Part shown: one piece after another, positions 3,996 to 32,778 of the stretch
How the letters are laid out: each line of letters opens with the position of its first letter
How positions within the stretch are numbered: position 1 is the stretch's first letter
Source: Acidobacteriaceae bacterium
Lineage (GTDB): Bacteria > Acidobacteriota > Terriglobia > Terriglobales > Acidobacteriaceae
Reading direction: 5' to 3'
Assembly: GCA_030037475.1 (NCBI GenBank)
Contig: JASHRH010000266.1
Coordinates: forward strand, 1 to 33,295
Length of the DNA: 33,295 bases
The notes under the pieces: generated by a model
The model's input: the letters and a program-made list of their open reading frames with translations, nothing else
Database searches by the model: none
What the model was told of the DNA's origin: nothing
Made by a program: the position numbers and the translations under genes

Positions 3996-4019
3996 GGTGC
4001 CCGGCCTCGAATTTTGTGA

Positions 4020-4040
4020 CGCGCACGGTTGCGCGATTTT
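4020..4040 (+). terminator. weak intrinsic terminator candidate: CGCGCA-CGGT-TGCGCG followed by ATTTT
   Basis: 6-bp GC stem, 4-nt loop, short T run; after the decarboxylase gene and before the TPR gene. Confidence 0.3.
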
Positions 4041-4182
4041 CCCCGATACGCTACAAACCACCAGGTGTCGCGCCGATGACGCAGCCGCCGAGACAGGCTC
4101 GAGCGGGCGCGAGCACACACCGACGCGAGCACACGTGGAATGCGCACCTGCCCGGATCCGAGTACGTAAAGTGTTCTCCCGT

Positions 4183-4851
4183 ATGAAGAAAGCTTCGTTC
4201 GCCATCAGATCACTCGCCGGTACACTTCTGTTTTTTGTCCAGCTCGTCGGTTATGCCCACGCTCAGGACGTTCCTGGATGCGGGTCGCTGGCAAATGCGT
4301 ACGGTCCATTCGACTATCGCAACGCAGCAGCGCATCAACACGACATCCCTCTTGTCGAGAAATTTCACTTCACGCCTCAAGTCGAATTCTTGATACACGG
4401 CTCCACGGGATCGGTGCTCGGCGATCTCGATTACACCCTCCGTGCGATCCCAAATCACCCACGGGCGCTTGCAGCCATGGCTCGCTACGCGTTGCAGGGC
4501 GGGCGATTCCCACCGACCGCGCGGATCCCGAACGCCGAATGCTACTTTCTGCGCGCGCTCGCCTTTACGCCCGACGACCCGACGGTGCACGAGATATACG
4601 CAGATTTCCTCTACAAGCTCCATCGAAACGCGCAAGCGAAGCAGCAGTACGAGGCCGCTCTTCGCATTGCTCCCGGATCGGCGGAGATCAACTATAACGC
4701 TGGTCTGTTCTTCCTCGACCTGGGCGACGTAAAGCGTGCAAAGCAATTGGCGAACATTGCATACGCCGCGGGCTTTCCATTGCCGGGGCTCCGCAACAGA
4801 ATCGCGGCGGCCGAATCCGACGCCCGAGTGCATCATGTGCCCGACAGATAA
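4183..4851 (+). CDS. secreted TPR-containing protein of unknown function
   Basis: Signal peptide MKKASFAIRSLAGTLLFFVQLVGYAHAQ; TPR-like helices (DPTVHEIYADFLYKLHRNAQAKQQYEAALRIAPGSAEINYNAGLFFLDLGDVKRAKQLANIAY). Start placed at Met 4183 rather than 3997. Confidence 0.8.
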   Translation: MKKASFAIRSLAGTLLFFVQLVGYAHAQDVPGCGSLANAYGPFDYRNAAAHQHDIPLVEKFHFTPQVEFLIHGSTGSVLGDLDYTLRAIPNHPRALAAMARYALQGGRFPPTARIPNAECYFLRALAFTPDDPTVHEIYADFLYKLHRNAQAKQQYEAALRIAPGSAEINYNAGLFFLDLGDVKRAKQLANIAYAAGFPLPGLRNRIAAAESDARVHHVPDR

Positions 4852-4869: not shown

Positions 4870-6240
4870 GTGTCGCTGACCGCAATCGTCTTTCTGGTCG
4901 CATTCGCGACCGCATGCGTTCTGGCGCTCGTTCGCCACCCGATCTACGGCCTCGGAGCGTATGTCGCAACGCTCTACTTCGATCCTGCAGGCCAGTGGTG
5001 GGGCCAGGGCGCCATACAAGAAGTTCGGTGGGAATTCCTGCCGGCCATCGTGACACTCGTTGCGATGTTCCTCCACGGGAAACGCACGGCAGCACTGTCC
5101 GCACTTCACAGCGGTCCGTTCTGGGGATTCGTAGCCTACGTCGGATGGGTGGCAATCCAAAGTTCGTGGGCGCTCGATCCGGTCGCCCATCGAGAGCTGC
5201 TCACGATCTGGGTCAAGTTCCTGATCGTCACCATCATGATCTCTGGATGCATCGATTCCTGGAGCCACTTTCGGCTCTTTCTATGGCTCAACGTCGTAGG
5301 GTCCTTTTATCTGGGATGGCTCTCCTACACGGAATACAGCGGCGGCCGGTTTCAAGGTTTCGGTGGCGGAAGCTTCGGCGAGGCGAATGCTGGCGCCCTC
5401 GAACTGGTCATCGGATTGGTTATCGCGGCCACACTCTTTCTAGGCGGCCGCTGGCGCACAAGGACGATACTCCTCCCCCCAATCGCAATTATCGCCAACG
5501 GTATAGTGACCACGATAAGTCGTAGCGGCTTTCTGGCTGCGCTCGCATCCCTGTTCACCTTCAACATATTTGCTCCGAGGTCGTTGCGTTGGCGCGTCGG
5601 CTTCCTGTCCGCTGCCGCGGTCGTGCTTTTCCTGTCGCTCACCACGACCGGCTACTGGAACCGGATGCAGACGATCAAATACGAAGGTGCCGACCTCCCG
5701 GGCATCGATACCGGAGGAGGTCGGCTGGACATCCTCTACGCGCAATGGCGAATTTTCGAGGAACATCCCCTCGGATGCGGCGCCATGTGTACGACCGTGC
5801 TCAGCCCGCAATTTGTCCCTGAGCAATATCTTTCCGGCGGACCCGGCGGACAGCGGGCATCCCACAACACATTCATGAGCATGCTGGTCGACCAGGGGAT
5901 CCCTGGCGGGATCCTATATCTCGCCCTGCTCCTTTGGACCTATGTCGCACTGCGCCGCGCCACCAAAGCCCTGCGACGTCGTAGGGATTTCCCCGCCATC
6001 GTTCTGCCAGGCCTCGCGGCAGTAATGGTCGCCATCACGGTGGCCGACCTTTTCGTCGAGTACACGCGCTTAGAGGCTCGCGTTTGGTTTGTCGGCCTCT
6101 TGATCACTCACGCTCGACTCGTCTCGAGGGATGCCGCAAACGCCCGAAGAGCAGCGATCACAGAGCCGCCGGTGGCCTCGACGCTCTCCGCACCCAACGC
6201 TTACGGCCCGGTCCGACCGCGCGCTCTGACCTGGCGCTGA
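4870..6240 (+). CDS. probable O-glycosylation ligase, exosortase A-associated (TIGR03097-like, Wzy/WaaL fold)
   Basis: GTG start; multiple hydrophobic TM segments, FGGGSFGEANAGALELVIGL and GGQRASHNTFMSMLVDQGIPGGILYL (ligase His motif region). Starts 18 bp after the TPR gene stop. Confidence 0.88.
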   Translation: MSLTAIVFLVAFATACVLALVRHPIYGLGAYVATLYFDPAGQWWGQGAIQEVRWEFLPAIVTLVAMFLHGKRTAALSALHSGPFWGFVAYVGWVAIQSSWALDPVAHRELLTIWVKFLIVTIMISGCIDSWSHFRLFLWLNVVGSFYLGWLSYTEYSGGRFQGFGGGSFGEANAGALELVIGLVIAATLFLGGRWRTRTILLPPIAIIANGIVTTISRSGFLAALASLFTFNIFAPRSLRWRVGFLSAAAVVLFLSLTTTGYWNRMQTIKYEGADLPGIDTGGGRLDILYAQWRIFEEHPLGCGAMCTTVLSPQFVPEQYLSGGPGGQRASHNTFMSMLVDQGIPGGILYLALLLWTYVALRRATKALRRRRDFPAIVLPGLAAVMVAITVADLFVEYTRLEARVWFVGLLITHARLVSRDAANARRAAITEPPVASTLSAPNAYGPVRPRALTWR

Positions 6241-6264: not shown

Positions 6265-8454
6265 TCAAGTCCGCGGCACGAACGCGAACTGTGGAGTGTT
6301 GCTGGCCCCATCCGCCTGCGGCGTGTAATTCGGCGCTGCCTGTATCAGTGCGTATGCGGCGACGGCGCCCGAGATTCCGGCGTCGATGGCTTGCGCGATG
6401 ATCGAGATGTGGAGCGCCCAGTATCCACTGCCCGGATTGGAGGTGTCGCCTGCGCTCGTGGCGGTATCCGAATCGTGCTGCAGAAGCGTATCGCCCGGAT
6501 TCGCAGTGATGGACGTGGAGAGTCCGTCACTTGACACGTAGGAAGCATACGCCTGGGGGATCGTCATGAAGACCGGCGCCGCGGGAGTGCTCGAATTCAT
6601 CAGGTAAGGGCGCGCATAGGTGCAGGCACGACGAAAGTTCCAAGTCGAGTTATTTCCGATCGTCAGAAGCGTATCCTGATAGACGAAGTTCCGAATCGAC
6701 TCGAGATCCGACTGATTTGACAAGCCCTCAATACCGAGATCTGCGATGTGGCCGAGCGCCATGCCCTGGAAAGCGACCATCCAGGCGCCGCCCCACCATT
6801 CGTTGGTCGGATAATTCGCGGCGGTATACCCATCATACTGCCCGAGCCATCCGATCGAGTTCTTGAACGTGCCGTTGTCGATCGTCCCCAGGACGTAGCG
6901 CTGATTGTTCCACTGCGCCGTGTCATGGATACTCTGTACGAATGCCGCCTGAAGCTCCGCGTCAGCCGTCGGTAGCGCCGCCCCGTTGATTCCGGTAGGG
7001 GTAATTGCCGCCGTCTGGCCCATGGTGCGCCAACACCAAGCCGTGCCGCGAGTTGTCAGAGGCGCATTAATGCATGCGAGTACCCCGCCTCCCTGCCGGG
7101 TAGGCGGGTTCGACTCCAGAATGTCGTCCATTGCGGCGAATTGCAGGGACTCGAGCTGCGTCCACCGACCCTCGATCAGATGCGCGAGATATCCATTCGA
7201 TGGATGATGCGCAATATCCCACGGACCGTTGGTGCCCCCCGACGGGGTGGGAGGCGCCGTCCCCCAGCCGCTTGTCAGGGTCGTCTGAGGATAGCTCAAA
7301 TAATTGCAAACGCGTCCCGTATTCTCGTCACGGTAGTGTATGGGCCATCTACCCGACCCACGATTGTTGCTGATGGTCGCCGCGTAGGCGCGCGAATCCG
7401 CCGTAGTGCAGTAGAGCGCCTCCCATTGAGGAAGAACGCCGATCGACGGTTGGTAACCAGCATTGCCCATTCTGGCCGTCCAGTTTCCGAGCGCAAAGGG
7501 CACGGGATTCAACGCGGACGCCAGACTCGCAAAGGCGGCCGACGACGGATTCGTATAGCCATAGTTGGGGACCATTCGAGTGGCCCGCAGGTACGCCGCA
7601 TCGTGGGTGGGTGTAATTTGTGGGTTTGTACCAATCCAATCCACTCGCGACCAACGCGTATGGGAATAGTGAGCGAGGCTCGCGGAGAACGTCGTCGAAC
7701 CACCTACGTTCAGGGCGATCGTATAGTCGCGCTCTCCGGGTGCTGGGACGTTCATCCATCCGTTCTCGACGACCGTCTCGATTTCTGTCGTGCCATTGGA
7801 ATACGCCCGAACGAAGAACCACATTGCGACGTGCGCGTCGGTCGTCGGACAGTAATAGTGAAATTCCGACATCACCGGACCCAGTATCTGCCTGACGCGC
7901 CCTGCGGACCCTTTGTTCCAATTGGAAAGATCGACTCCGAGACAGGACTGCAATGCGTACGTTCCCGTTACGGCTCCCGTGAACGTCGCAGTCACATTCA
8001 GGCTCTTCGGCTCGGCGACGGTCGATTCCGAGGGCGCCGAAGAAGTCGTAGCGAGCGTTATCGTCTGTAGCGCGTTCTGCGTAAACGACGCAATTCCGCT
8101 CAGTACCGCAAATTTCGCGCTCCCATCGGGCCACCTATTGAGGATCGTCGCCTGCGAGCTCGTGGAGCTCGTCGTGATGTACTGCCCGCTAGGCACATCG
8201 CCCTGCCGGAAGGCGTGCCCAAAAGTCCATCCGTGGGTTCCCGAGCTGGCCGCACTCGTCAGTCCCAACGTGGGCAGACCCACACTCACCGTGCCGCACG
8301 AGGCGGACGCCGACGTACCTCCCACAGCGCTCACCACCGATGGAGGGCAGGGCGACGACCCGAAAGCGACTGCGCTTGCCGCCCCACCAGCCACGCCAGC
8401 AGCGCTGATCAGAAACTGCCGCCTGGTAAGATCCTTCGATCGCACATCACTCAC
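6265..8454 (-). CDS. Tat-exported protein with RIFT-barrel-like N-terminal region; possible polysaccharide lyase-like enzyme
   Basis: GTG start; twin-arginine signal MSDVRSKDLTRRQFLISAAGVAGGAASAVAFG; FGHAFRQGDVPSGQYI...NRWPDGSAKFAVLSG resembles PcRGLX/YetA-type RIFT barrels; C-terminal half has helical-barrel-like segments (RGTAWCWRTMGQTA, TNEWWGGAWMVAFQGMALGHI). Confidence 0.75.
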   Translation of the reverse strand: MSDVRSKDLTRRQFLISAAGVAGGAASAVAFGSSPCPPSVVSAVGGTSASASCGTVSVGLPTLGLTSAASSGTHGWTFGHAFRQGDVPSGQYITTSSTSSQATILNRWPDGSAKFAVLSGIASFTQNALQTITLATTSSAPSESTVAEPKSLNVTATFTGAVTGTYALQSCLGVDLSNWNKGSAGRVRQILGPVMSEFHYYCPTTDAHVAMWFFVRAYSNGTTEIETVVENGWMNVPAPGERDYTIALNVGGSTTFSASLAHYSHTRWSRVDWIGTNPQITPTHDAAYLRATRMVPNYGYTNPSSAAFASLASALNPVPFALGNWTARMGNAGYQPSIGVLPQWEALYCTTADSRAYAATISNNRGSGRWPIHYRDENTGRVCNYLSYPQTTLTSGWGTAPPTPSGGTNGPWDIAHHPSNGYLAHLIEGRWTQLESLQFAAMDDILESNPPTRQGGGVLACINAPLTTRGTAWCWRTMGQTAAITPTGINGAALPTADAELQAAFVQSIHDTAQWNNQRYVLGTIDNGTFKNSIGWLGQYDGYTAANYPTNEWWGGAWMVAFQGMALGHIADLGIEGLSNQSDLESIRNFVYQDTLLTIGNNSTWNFRRACTYARPYLMNSSTPAAPVFMTIPQAYASYVSSDGLSTSITANPGDTLLQHDSDTATSAGDTSNPGSGYWALHISIIAQAIDAGISGAVAAYALIQAAPNYTPQADGASNTPQFAFVPRT

Positions 8455-9060
8455 CGCACTTCTCCCGCCTCACATCGTGGTATCGCCCAGTGATCGGTGT
8501 AGGGCATAGACACGCGGAGCACACCTCAAGACCGAGCCGACGACAGCAGCATTTATACCGATGGATCCAACCCTTGCAACCTGTATCCAAACGGCATCAG
8601 CCTGCGACAGTCTCACCCGTCAAACCCGCGTCGATCCTCACACACGAGTGGCTGTGTACAGAGCGAGAGAACATAATGCTGTGTACGGCATCACGATTGT
8701 TGCAATCCAATCCGATCGACTGCACTCTTCGACCGACAGCCCACGATGTGCCGTGAATCACAATTTCAGTTGCTCGGGCCGCGCCGAGACCCATCGCCCA
8801 GAGTGCTGTGCTACCTTGCCGAGGTGGGCCTGTGGCCGTCCCGTCTGGATACTACCGCGCAGGACCGGTAACCTTCTGACCGATTCAGAGAAGCGCGCAT
8901 GGATTTTGGTCGTCGGCAATGAGCGGCTCGACGGCCGCGGCGGCGAAATCCTCGATCCGGCTCCATCCGGGGGCGTCGCGAGGCAACGACAATTTCAGCT
9001 TTCTTCAATTGCATTGCAGGTGTGAAGCGTGCTGGCAATCCGTCGCGGAGGGCAAATCAC

Positions 9061-10278
9061 ATGAAGCGTCGAGAATTCTTGGCCGGCAGCCTCGGGACCC
9101 TCGGCGCATCGGCGCCCCTGGTGGGAATCGCCGCATCGCTGCCGTGCCCACCGTCGCCGGTCACTGTCACGGGCGGCATCGCGGTTGCCACCCCTTGCCC
9201 GGCCCCAACCGGAACGATGCCCGCATGGTTCAAGAGTGCTTCGGTATTCCAATGGGTAACGTTGCCTTCTCTCAGTACGTCCGGCGTGTTGCCGAATCCT
9301 GTGCCACCCGGCATAACCGGCGTGAAGTCCGTGACGGACGCTTGGGGTGCCGGCGCGTTGCGTCAGAATGGCAGCTATTACATTCTGCATGGCGGGGGCC
9401 ACGGGGACTACGCGGGCAACGAGATCTACGCATTGCAGCTCTCTCTGGACAACCCTCAATGGCAGCGTATCTGGGGCCCGACGCCAAATGCGGACATCGT
9501 GGAAAATCAATACTATTACAACGACTCTCCCCAATCCCCGGCATCGATCCATTCGTATTACTGCCTCGCGTACGACGATCAGGACGACATCTTCATGAGG
9601 TTCACCCGGGGGCGTTTCGGAGTACCGAACTTTGTCGGGGGGATCGACGGGATCCGCTGGGGCGCGTCGAGCTGGGAACAGAACCAAAACAATACCATCT
9701 GGCCCGCGCCTGTCGGGTGCACGTATGCAAATGGGCAATGCAAGGACACGAGCGGAAACGTCTACTTGATCAACTCCTGGAAGAGATTCCTGTGGAATCG
9801 CGCGGCCAATTCGTGGTCCGTACCCATCGCGAATTCTTCCTATTCTCTCCAATCCTCCGGATCGTGCTACGACTCCGCGCGCCATGCGGTCTGGTCCTTC
9901 GGCGGCAGCTACGGCGGCGGCTCCGTTGGCGCTGGCCAGGCCTATATGTGGGACATTTCGACAAACAACGACAGTCTGATCTCCCTCGTGGGCGCCAATG
10001 CGACCTCGATAGACGGAATCAACGCGAACTTCAGCGGCGTTGCGTACGATCCGGTGGCGGACCTGGTATTCGTCTTGACGGGCGACGGCTACATTTATTC
10101 CTTCGTCCCGTCCACCCATGAGGTCACGCGACTCACGACGGCGGGAGCGTCTCTCCCGAATACCCAGTCGACCAGCGCAACCGGTCCGTGGGGTAAATTC
10201 CAGTACGTGTCGCAACTGGGAGGAGTCGTAATCCAGCCGACGTGGGCGTCGCCGACATTCTTCATGCGCACGCATTGA
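9061..10278 (+). CDS. Tat-exported kelch/beta-propeller-like protein
   Basis: Twin-arginine signal MKRREFLAGSLGTLGASAPLVGIAASL; ALRQNGSYYILHGGGHGDYAGNEIYALQLSLDNPQWQRIWGP and repeated blades (ARHAVWSFGGSYGGG, YDPVADLVFVLTGDGYIYSF). Start at Met 9061. Confidence 0.78.
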   Translation: MKRREFLAGSLGTLGASAPLVGIAASLPCPPSPVTVTGGIAVATPCPAPTGTMPAWFKSASVFQWVTLPSLSTSGVLPNPVPPGITGVKSVTDAWGAGALRQNGSYYILHGGGHGDYAGNEIYALQLSLDNPQWQRIWGPTPNADIVENQYYYNDSPQSPASIHSYYCLAYDDQDDIFMRFTRGRFGVPNFVGGIDGIRWGASSWEQNQNNTIWPAPVGCTYANGQCKDTSGNVYLINSWKRFLWNRAANSWSVPIANSSYSLQSSGSCYDSARHAVWSFGGSYGGGSVGAGQAYMWDISTNNDSLISLVGANATSIDGINANFSGVAYDPVADLVFVLTGDGYIYSFVPSTHEVTRLTTAGASLPNTQSTSATGPWGKFQYVSQLGGVVIQPTWASPTFFMRTH

Positions 10279-30430: not shown

Positions 30431-31194
30431 TCTCACATTTCGTGAGTTGACAATATCATGGAATCGATCAGCGTTTCCCGCCGGAGCAACTAGCGGCAAG
30501 CGTAGAGGGGGCTGGCGGGTAGCGCAGTCCGGCGCCAGATGTGAGCTCCTGCAATGCGCAGCTCATTGTCGCAGGGTTGTCGATGGCCACGGATTGGTCA
30601 AGGCCGGTTGAAAGCTGGCCGTCGCGCTCCACGAGTGGGAATCCGCGCTCGTGAATTCGCCGCCAGCAATGGAGCTCACGGTTGGCGAGTCGTTGGATGC
30701 CGGATCGCCCTCGGCGTGCCAGCCCCGACCTCGCAGGCGATACGGACAAGTTCAAGCTAGGGATGGATAGAGCATCGCGCTTTCGGATGTTGTCGCCGCG
30801 CAGCGGAAACGCACCGCTGGAGAGGCCGCCCTTTCCCAAGTATCTGATTGTACGTGGATTATCTGGCCCGAGGACGCGGCACCGGGCCGCCCGACCGAGA
30901 CGTGCGGTAGCCTTGCATCGACCGGACCCCATCGAGCAGCCTCTGGCCACGGCAGTCCAGCGCGCCTCGGGGGTCGATCGAAGTCCATCGTGCGGCGAAG
31001 GCCTGGCGGATTCTGTCGAGACTCGTATGAGTCATCGGTGGAAACAGAACTCAAAGCGCTTTGCACGCATGCACGACTGCCGCTATCGGGGCTGCCCGAC
31101 AGCGATTGTGATGGCAAACACAGCGTAATGGGTCGTTGCGAGTAAGCTATTGTGCCCGTCCCGGCCCCCGCGCGAAGGAACGACGAGCATCGAG

Positions 31195-32778
31195 ATGACG
31201 CCGAACATGGCCCGGCGCCCGAGCCGTGGCGATACCTCATTCTACGGGGCGCAAATGGAACGAGTCCTGACACGCATCAGCGCGTCGCACACACGCGCCG
31301 TGGCACTGCTGGCTCTGCTGGCGGTCGCGGCCGGCTCGATCTGGCCGACGTGGCCGCCCCTTGCCAGAACGTGGCATGTGATGCCCGAGTACTCGTACTC
31401 GATGTTGCTCGTACCCTTCATCGCGTGTTGGATTGTCGCTCGTAGCGCTTCCCTTCCACCGCCCGCGGAGCGGATGAGCCGTCTCGCCGTCGTTCTGCTC
31501 CTCTCGAGCCTGGCGATATGGCTCGTGGCGTATCGGGCCGCAAGCGCGATTGGAGAGCAATTGCTGATTCCCATTGCCCTGTGGGCCGCGGTGTGGACGG
31601 CGTATGGTCTGCCGATTGCCGCTCGTCTCGCCGCACCGATTGCCTGCCTGTATTTCGCGATCCCGCTGTGGGAGTTTTTTGTTCCAGGGATGCAGCACAT
31701 GGCCGTGGTGGTCTCCGAGACCGCGCTCGGGTGGCTCGGGGTGCCCACGCACATCGACGGAGTCCTCGTGAGCATTCCGGAAGGCACGTTTCAAATTGCC
31801 GAGGGATGCGCTGGGCGCCGCTATCTCATCGTGGCCCTGACGATCGCAGGTCTATTTGCCGGCACGACCGGCATGCGGCCGTGGCGAGCGCTCGGATTCC
31901 TATGCCTTACCGCCATCCTCGCGTTGATCACGAACTGGCTGCGAGTGCTCACGGTGATCTACGCGGGGCACCTCACGGACATGCATAGTTATCTGGTCGC
32001 GCACGAGCATCTGAGCTTTGGGTGGGCCCTCTTCGCGGCCCTCATGGTGGTCATTTGCCTGATTGGCTCACGCCTGGCACCCGCCCGCGAGGCGGCCCCG
32101 GACACCGAGCTGCAGCGATCCACCCAGCCGAACGCCCGAGAGCTCCTCCTGCGGCCCGCTTTGCTCACCACTGTGCTCGTGCTCTGTATCCCCGGAATCG
32201 GGATCATATATGCCGAGAAGGTGGGCGCGTCCACGCTCGATCCGGCCGTCGATTCGAGCCTGAGCTGGCCCAAGAGCACGGGCGCCTGGCAGGGTCCACG
32301 GATATCCGACGACTACTGGCGCCCAATGTATCCCGGCGCCTCGGCCGAGCTACGCGCCAATTACGATGGCCCGAGCGGCGACGTCGAGGTCTTCGTCGCC
32401 CAGTATGAAGAAGCGAGGCGAGGCGCAAAGCTGATCAGCAGTGCCAATACGCTGGTTCCGGAGAATTGGATGGTCGTGCGCGACGGCCGGCTGGGACAAA
32501 GGCCGGGGGATGGAAGAGCCGGACGCGCGAAGGCCATGTGGGTGGAATCCCCAGGCGGGGAAACTTGGCTGATCAGCTACTGGTATCGAGTCGACAGGGT
32601 AGTGACGACGAGCCCTATCGCTGCGCAACTCGCATACGGCATTCTTTCCTGGAAAGGTCCGATCCTCTCTCGCATCGTGGCGGTCGCAACCCGGTGCGAG
32701 CGCCCGTGCGCCCAGAAGCGAATGGCACAGAAGGATTTCTGGAGCGCGGTCGGCTTCCCCTTGCTCGACGAGCCCTGA
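31195..32778 (+). CDS. xrtA: exosortase A with C-terminal EpsI domain; start uncertain (TTG 31150, ATG 31195 or ATG 31255)
   Basis: Multi-TM; catalytic-type motifs AEGCAGRRYLIVAL (Cys codon 31807-31809), TNWLRVLTVIYAGHL (Arg 31942-31944), HEHLSFGWALF (His 32008-32010); then EpsI-like LSWPKSTGAWQGPRISDDYWRPMYPGASAELRANYDGPSGDVEVFVAQY. Confidence 0.88.
   Translation: MTPNMARRPSRGDTSFYGAQMERVLTRISASHTRAVALLALLAVAAGSIWPTWPPLARTWHVMPEYSYSMLLVPFIACWIVARSASLPPPAERMSRLAVVLLLSSLAIWLVAYRAASAIGEQLLIPIALWAAVWTAYGLPIAARLAAPIACLYFAIPLWEFFVPGMQHMAVVVSETALGWLGVPTHIDGVLVSIPEGTFQIAEGCAGRRYLIVALTIAGLFAGTTGMRPWRALGFLCLTAILALITNWLRVLTVIYAGHLTDMHSYLVAHEHLSFGWALFAALMVVICLIGSRLAPAREAAPDTELQRSTQPNARELLLRPALLTTVLVLCIPGIGIIYAEKVGASTLDPAVDSSLSWPKSTGAWQGPRISDDYWRPMYPGASAELRANYDGPSGDVEVFVAQYEEARRGAKLISSANTLVPENWMVVRDGRLGQRPGDGRAGRAKAMWVESPGGETWLISYWYRVDRVVTTSPIAAQLAYGILSWKGPILSRIVAVATRCERPCAQKRMAQKDFWSAVGFPLLDEP

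Follow-up and report, generated by a model that had tools for sequence, protein, structure and literature searches.

Exosortase-linked polysaccharide loci are widespread. The closest described counterpart of the element reported here is PEP-CTERM, a short tag that is conserved among exported proteins otherwise unrelated and is linked to exopolysaccharide loci (Haft 2006, PMC1569441); this tag is C-terminal and is thought to be recognised by EpsH/exosortase (PMC1569441). The two-Cys module described below likewise is a short tag on unrelated proteins in the same type of locus; unlike PEP-CTERM it is N-terminal, follows Tat signals, contains two cysteines and has no transmembrane helix.

The two proteins on which it was noticed, P0001 and P0002, each resemble known families in part. 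P0001 matches the N-terminal RIFT-barrel model of the PcRGLX exo-rhamnogalacturonan lyases (PF19501, PF21345); unlike these lyases it has no match to the second domain, and its N-terminal module lies outside the family. The full-length homologues of P0001 that were found are phage proteins and proteins of exopolysaccharide loci. P0002 has the predicted fold of kelch/galactose-oxidase-type propellers (PF13964, PF13418, PF13415), models that several of its homologues match; unlike these propellers it carries a Tat signal and the module in addition, and only its propeller part is recognised. The nearest non-orthologous relatives of both proteins are homologues encoded in phage virion regions (EBPR siphovirus gp39; IMG/VR L033-L038), which, unlike P0001 and P0002, have neither a Tat signal nor the module.

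Locus and origin of the contig

The window, i.e. the whole stretch of 33,295 nucleotides analysed, is filled by an XrtA/PEP-CTERM exopolysaccharide locus, for which profile searches identified an exosortase A-type gene, a chain-length determinant, an export protein and an autokinase, accompanied by a FemAB-like protein, two amidotransferases, hydrolases 1 and 2, glycosyltransferases and an O-ligase-like protein. The coordinates of the features discussed are collected in Table 1. When the intergenic region between P0001 and P0002 was scanned for promoters, no sigma-70 site and no convincing sigma-54 site was found; sigma-54 control of this divergent promoter, an idea taken from PMC1569441, was rejected for want of a convincing site.

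Judged by composition and by the affinities of its genes, the contig (C422 of G000) looks mis-binned or transferred. The tetranucleotide correlation of the window with the rest of the bin is 0.565 (pieces of the bin, 0.75-0.78), and the O-ligase-like gene is absent from 11 other genomes of the nominal genus. The genes of the locus are mostly 31-76% identical to their counterparts in genomes G967 and G952, which belong to another order; FemAB is 69% identical to that of G967 versus 43% to the nominal family. For the main amidotransferase, identity is 76% to that of G952 versus 39-48% to the bin's own family. With a contig of this appearance, searches among the nominal relatives of the bin say little; P0001 and P0002 were searched in the bin's own order and class, and no orthologue was found there.

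Table 1. Location of the features discussed; coordinates refer to the window unless a locus is named
Feature	Location	Strand	Remarks
Secreted TPR protein (CGSLANAYGPFDYR...)	3997..4851	+	Kept as neighbour in other genomes
TPR neighbour copies in other loci	L012:159-893; L131:16633-17340; L133:6733-7527		
O-ligase-like membrane protein	4870..6240	+	TIGR03097 match below cut-off; directly adjoins P0001
P0001, probable polysaccharide lyase-like exoenzyme, 729 aa	6265..8454	-	PF19501 match and G967 orthologue
Two-Cys module of P0001, PCPPSVVSAVGGTSASASC	8296..8352	-	Cys36, Cys53
Tat signal of P0001 (...LTRRQFLISAAGVAGGAASAVAFG)	8359..8454	-	GTG start at 8454
Divergent intergenic region, 606 bp	8455..9060	.	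Between P0001 and P0002
P0002, Tat-exported kelch-type propeller (predicted), 405 aa	9061..10278	+	ATG at 9061 (MKRREF...) is the better start
Tat signal of P0002 (MKRREFLAGSLGTLGASAPLVGIAASL)	9061..9141	+	KRREFL motif by sequence
Two-Cys module of P0002, PCPPSPVTVTGGIAVATPC	9142..9198	+	
Exosortase A-type gene, same locus	31150..32778	+	TIGR03109 190 bits (below cut-off of 208); TIGR02602 over cut-off
Third-family members, about 385 aa	L131:8986-10128; L132:8725-9894		Tat-exported; XrtA-type loci
Kelch/PcRGLX fusion of Nitrospira, at least 1600 aa	L013:4317-9326	+	
PcRGLX-type protein	L085:8555-11047		
Phage PcRGLX-type gene	L034:3941-5935		Shortly after head maturation protease and major capsid gene
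Phage kelch-type gene	L038:4097-5197		Shortly after head maturation protease and major capsid gene

The two exported proteins

P0001, a probable polysaccharide lyase-like exoenzyme, comprises, in order, a Tat signal, the two-Cys module, a PcRGLX-type RIFT-barrel domain, and a long region in which PxHYRDE and AHHPS motifs are conserved. The match to PF19501 (PcRGLX_1st) covers residues 65-121 at 24.0 bits (Pfam cut-off 22.1), and PF21345, the central beta-sandwich domain of PcRGLX, was not matched at E values up to 10. The GTG start is backed by the G967 orthologue, which begins alike (MSDPNSSDISRRQFL). The Tat motif TRRQFL precedes a hydrophobic stretch; PF10518 matches it weakly (E 4.2), and matches the orthologue at E 1.3e-3. 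The AlphaFold2 model of P0001 reached a pLDDT of 41.

For P0002, an alternative GTG start at 9022 would give 418 aa. Its assignment as a kelch-type beta-propeller comes from homologues and from a moderate AlphaFold2 model (pLDDT 69, pTM 0.73), with which Foldseek found kelch propellers at E 1e-8 to 1e-11 and TM 0.4-0.5; no kelch Pfam model matches P0002 itself, and its homologues in L012, L013 and L131 do match. In the AlphaFold2 model the module is of low confidence, with pLDDT below 50 over residues 1-63 of P0002. The C-termini of both proteins (P0001, ...NTPQFAFVPRT; P0002, ...SPTFFMRTH) are without a PEP motif, transmembrane helix and basic tail.

The shared N-terminal module

An earlier note on this DNA had described a divergent gene pair whose products share collinear 19-residue stretches; genes and stretches are there as described, and the Cys, PPS, V and GG coincide. 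Nine of the 19 residues are identical without a gap (P, C, P, P, S, V, G, G, C), and the alignment runs on through the Tat signal (BLOSUM62 local score 93). Over the 40 residues after the signal, the observed score was reached by 2 of 20,000 double shuffles; tblastn of P0002 against its own assembly returned the P0001 leader as the sole second match (E 3.3e-4). The DNA of the two stretches is identical at 34 of 57 bp (60%) and at 8 of 19 third positions, so that the pair is not a recent duplication.

A search in the order of the genome that contains L012 (a proteobacterium, with kelch genes beside a TPR homologue) found further carriers. G967 encodes a full-length orthologue of P0001, 59% identical, with Tat signal and module PCAPGALSVAGGTSSSTSC; G952 encodes a Tat kelch protein (module PCPPPQISAGEFGNATTAC) together with a Tat-exported member of a third, unnamed family (PCPPPSMSAAGGGTASTPC); and G1068 encodes a Tat kelch protein (PCPPTSLSLDKGDVAYATTSC) and a further member of the third family (PCPPASVSVIGGSTASSNC). 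Together with the window pair, this amounts to seven copies of the module on proteins of three unrelated families in four genomes, which bears out the earlier proposal that co-located exported proteins, otherwise unrelated, have a module at the mature N-terminus in common. All seven copies directly follow a Tat signal of the form RR-x-[FV]-L, and all four loci carry XrtA-system genes. The module spans roughly 20 residues with the pattern P-C-[PA]-P-x2-hydrophobic-[ST]-x2-(GG)-x4-6-x2-C; every copy has P-C-[PA]-P, S/T preceded by a hydrophobic residue, and another Cys 17-19 residues past the first. The GG is present in five copies, and the exact PPS, V, GG pattern is that of the window pair, the wider family being looser.

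The module corresponds to no model in the libraries scanned. No full-length family covers the carrier proteins, and no Pfam, NCBIfam or PHROGs model covers the module in the window proteins, in agreement with the earlier note, which had not recognised a named domain; for the other carriers, no Pfam model covers the module, and neither does any PDB entry for the third family and the kelch proteins. The third family as such, whose two members are 26% identical to each other, has no Pfam or PDB match and a weak profile match (E 0.003) to kelch-bearing L019.

Module-only profiles, with one family left out of training, were searched against 2048 ORFs. The profile trained without the third family found its two members at E 1e-4 and 9e-3, above all unrelated ORFs; without the kelch proteins, the kelch modules were found weakly (E 0.4-5) and mixed with noise; and without PcRGLX, the lyases were recovered partly, the G967 copy being missed. 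Such a graded outcome is expected of 19 residues, and position, signal and locus carry the case as much as the profile does. The stretch is indeed short and of low complexity, which together with the weak kelch profiles could be read as chance or convergence, i.e. as a side effect of Tat signals and of linkers rich in Pro/Ala/Gly/Ser in GC-rich genomes. We consider this very improbable in view of the shuffling result and of seven copies in loci whose G+C content ranges from 43 to 68%, so that composition does not explain the motif; in addition, the leader profile had no significant match to any further Tat protein of the loci retrieved.

Several broader searches were empty. A strict degenerate DNA pattern recovered only the two known copies from 399 genomes of the bin's class and had no match in IMG/VR, and a relaxed pattern gave scattered, chance-like matches in 296 genomes; these patterns allowed nothing but S (or a similar codon class) behind PCPP and V, and the genomes were of the wrong lineage, so that the negatives mean little. 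Searches of plasmids and phages had no match for P0002 or the third family, nor did plasmids have one for the consensus leader, and among the papers searched none names both exosortase and kelch.

Position and conservation of the module

Most carriers have, by eye, a cleavage site of small residues (AVA, AFA, ASA, SQA or the like) ahead of the PC, and the motif begins 2-5 residues past a plausible cleavage site, which would place it at the mature N-terminus and outside the cleaved region that the earlier note had named as its possible location. The module directly abuts the signal, and might on that account be part of the cleaved signal, or of a signal peptidase or Tat proofreading context, and be absent from the mature protein; with such cleavage sites in front of it, this is highly unlikely, and to our knowledge a Cys-Pro-Pro stretch with two fixed cysteines is no known feature of c-regions. 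Lipoprotein anchoring was rejected as well: the lipobox [LVI]-[ASTVI]-[GAS]-C is absent, and Pro precedes the Cys in all seven copies.

By sequence identity, the module is conserved better than the protein body in distant carriers: between genomes, it is 63% identical in the third family versus 28% for the bodies, and 32-53% in the kelch carriers versus 24-27%; in the close lyase pair (P0001 and its G967 orthologue) module and body are alike (58% and 60%). Copies of the same genome are no more alike than copies of different genomes, which argues against gene conversion; concerted evolution of two copies in one genome was thus not seen. The same observation gives no sign of co-adaptation to a strain-specific partner and in this respect speaks against docking.

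More distant homologues of P0001 and P0002, at 20-35% identity, were found on plasmids, in phages and in many genomes, and none of these has the module. The motif is kept by the closest orthologue and by Tat-exported relatives in two other genomes, so that its absence from homologues, which would have spoken against the earlier note, is confined to part of them: in our sample, non-Tat homologues are without the module and Tat members have it, with one exception, the kelch homologue of G967, which has a Tat signal and no module and so counts against docking. Stray Tat or module flags in L013, L040, L136 and L027 were spurious by eye, lying outside the signal region or inside the propeller.

The kelch homologues of L021, L024, L025 and L027 have, directly ahead of the first propeller strand, a two-Cys loop of their own (CP...GC or the like), superficially like the N-terminal module and distinct from it in position.

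Gene partnership and phage relatives

At least six genomes (the window, G902, G1027, G369, G865 and G967) have lyase-like and kelch genes side by side or in the same locus. In a Nitrospira protein (L013), a kelch propeller, Ig-like and fibronectin III domains and the second PcRGLX domain (PF21345) are fused in one chain, and its gene adjoins an exosortase and EpsI gene. The shared loci and this fusion support joint action on a polymer. Further neighbours are an O-ligase gene next to the PcRGLX-type gene of L085, and FemAB and PrsT adjoining the kelch genes of L080.

The PcRGLX-type protein of L085, from an exopolysaccharide locus, has a dockerin-like C-terminal tail.

The secreted TPR protein is a recurrent neighbour of kelch or PcRGLX genes and has a conserved start (CG-x-L-x-N-x-[YF]-GP-[FY]-DY); no specific family name was found for it. 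It is a candidate docking partner, as a lead only, and it is also present in L133, which has no module.

The phage relatives of P0001 and P0002 are encoded in head-gene regions, and the PcRGLX-type product of L034 and the kelch-type product of L038 may be virion-associated, polysaccharide-acting proteins. An exchange of lyase-like and kelch families between phages and polysaccharide loci is plausible from these relationships.

Proposed function of the module

The mature part of the G952 kelch protein has no cysteine besides the module pair, and for this reason the two module cysteines probably pair with each other as a disulfide. Of the anchoring, pairing or disulfide role that the earlier note had suggested, the disulfide part has thereby become likely, and docking we still infer. 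In the mechanism that we propose, the proteins would be exported by Tat and the signal cleaved just before the module; the two cysteines would join to form a small N-terminal loop on the mature protein; and the loop would dock or anchor the carriers on a common partner or surface site, whereby enzyme and propeller could act together on the exopolysaccharide. Docking would then replace what other bacteria achieve by fusing the proteins. That the module docks or anchors exported proteins in this way has, in our estimation, an even chance of being right.

The same loop might serve as a structural N-cap, which would protect the mature N-terminus or keep the domain at a distance from the membrane, no common partner being involved, and which may have spread between genes in an export leader cassette made up of the Tat signal and the first mature residues. 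Its position just past plausible cleavage sites in all seven carriers, always with a Tat signal, its absence from non-Tat homologues, and the lack of special likeness within genomes all fit a cap; a cap, however, needs no conservation of Cys-Pro-Pro across three folds, nor a restriction to XrtA loci, as seen in our sample, nor a module better kept than the enzyme body in distant carriers. We regard the N-cap as possible, though doubtful. Equally tentative is the full docking proposal, by which the module would be an N-terminal tag, not described before, that docks or retains proteins encoded in XrtA/PEP-CTERM loci, exported by Tat and active on exopolysaccharide.

A module that a lyase-like enzyme, a propeller and a third protein have in common provides a handle for defining an accessory complex, and PcRGLX-like and kelch families that are shared with phages are tied to the same bacterial polysaccharide loci. 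If the docking proposal is true, the module would be an N-terminal counterpart of PEP-CTERM, bringing a propeller and several exoenzymes together on a single partner in the periplasm or at the surface.
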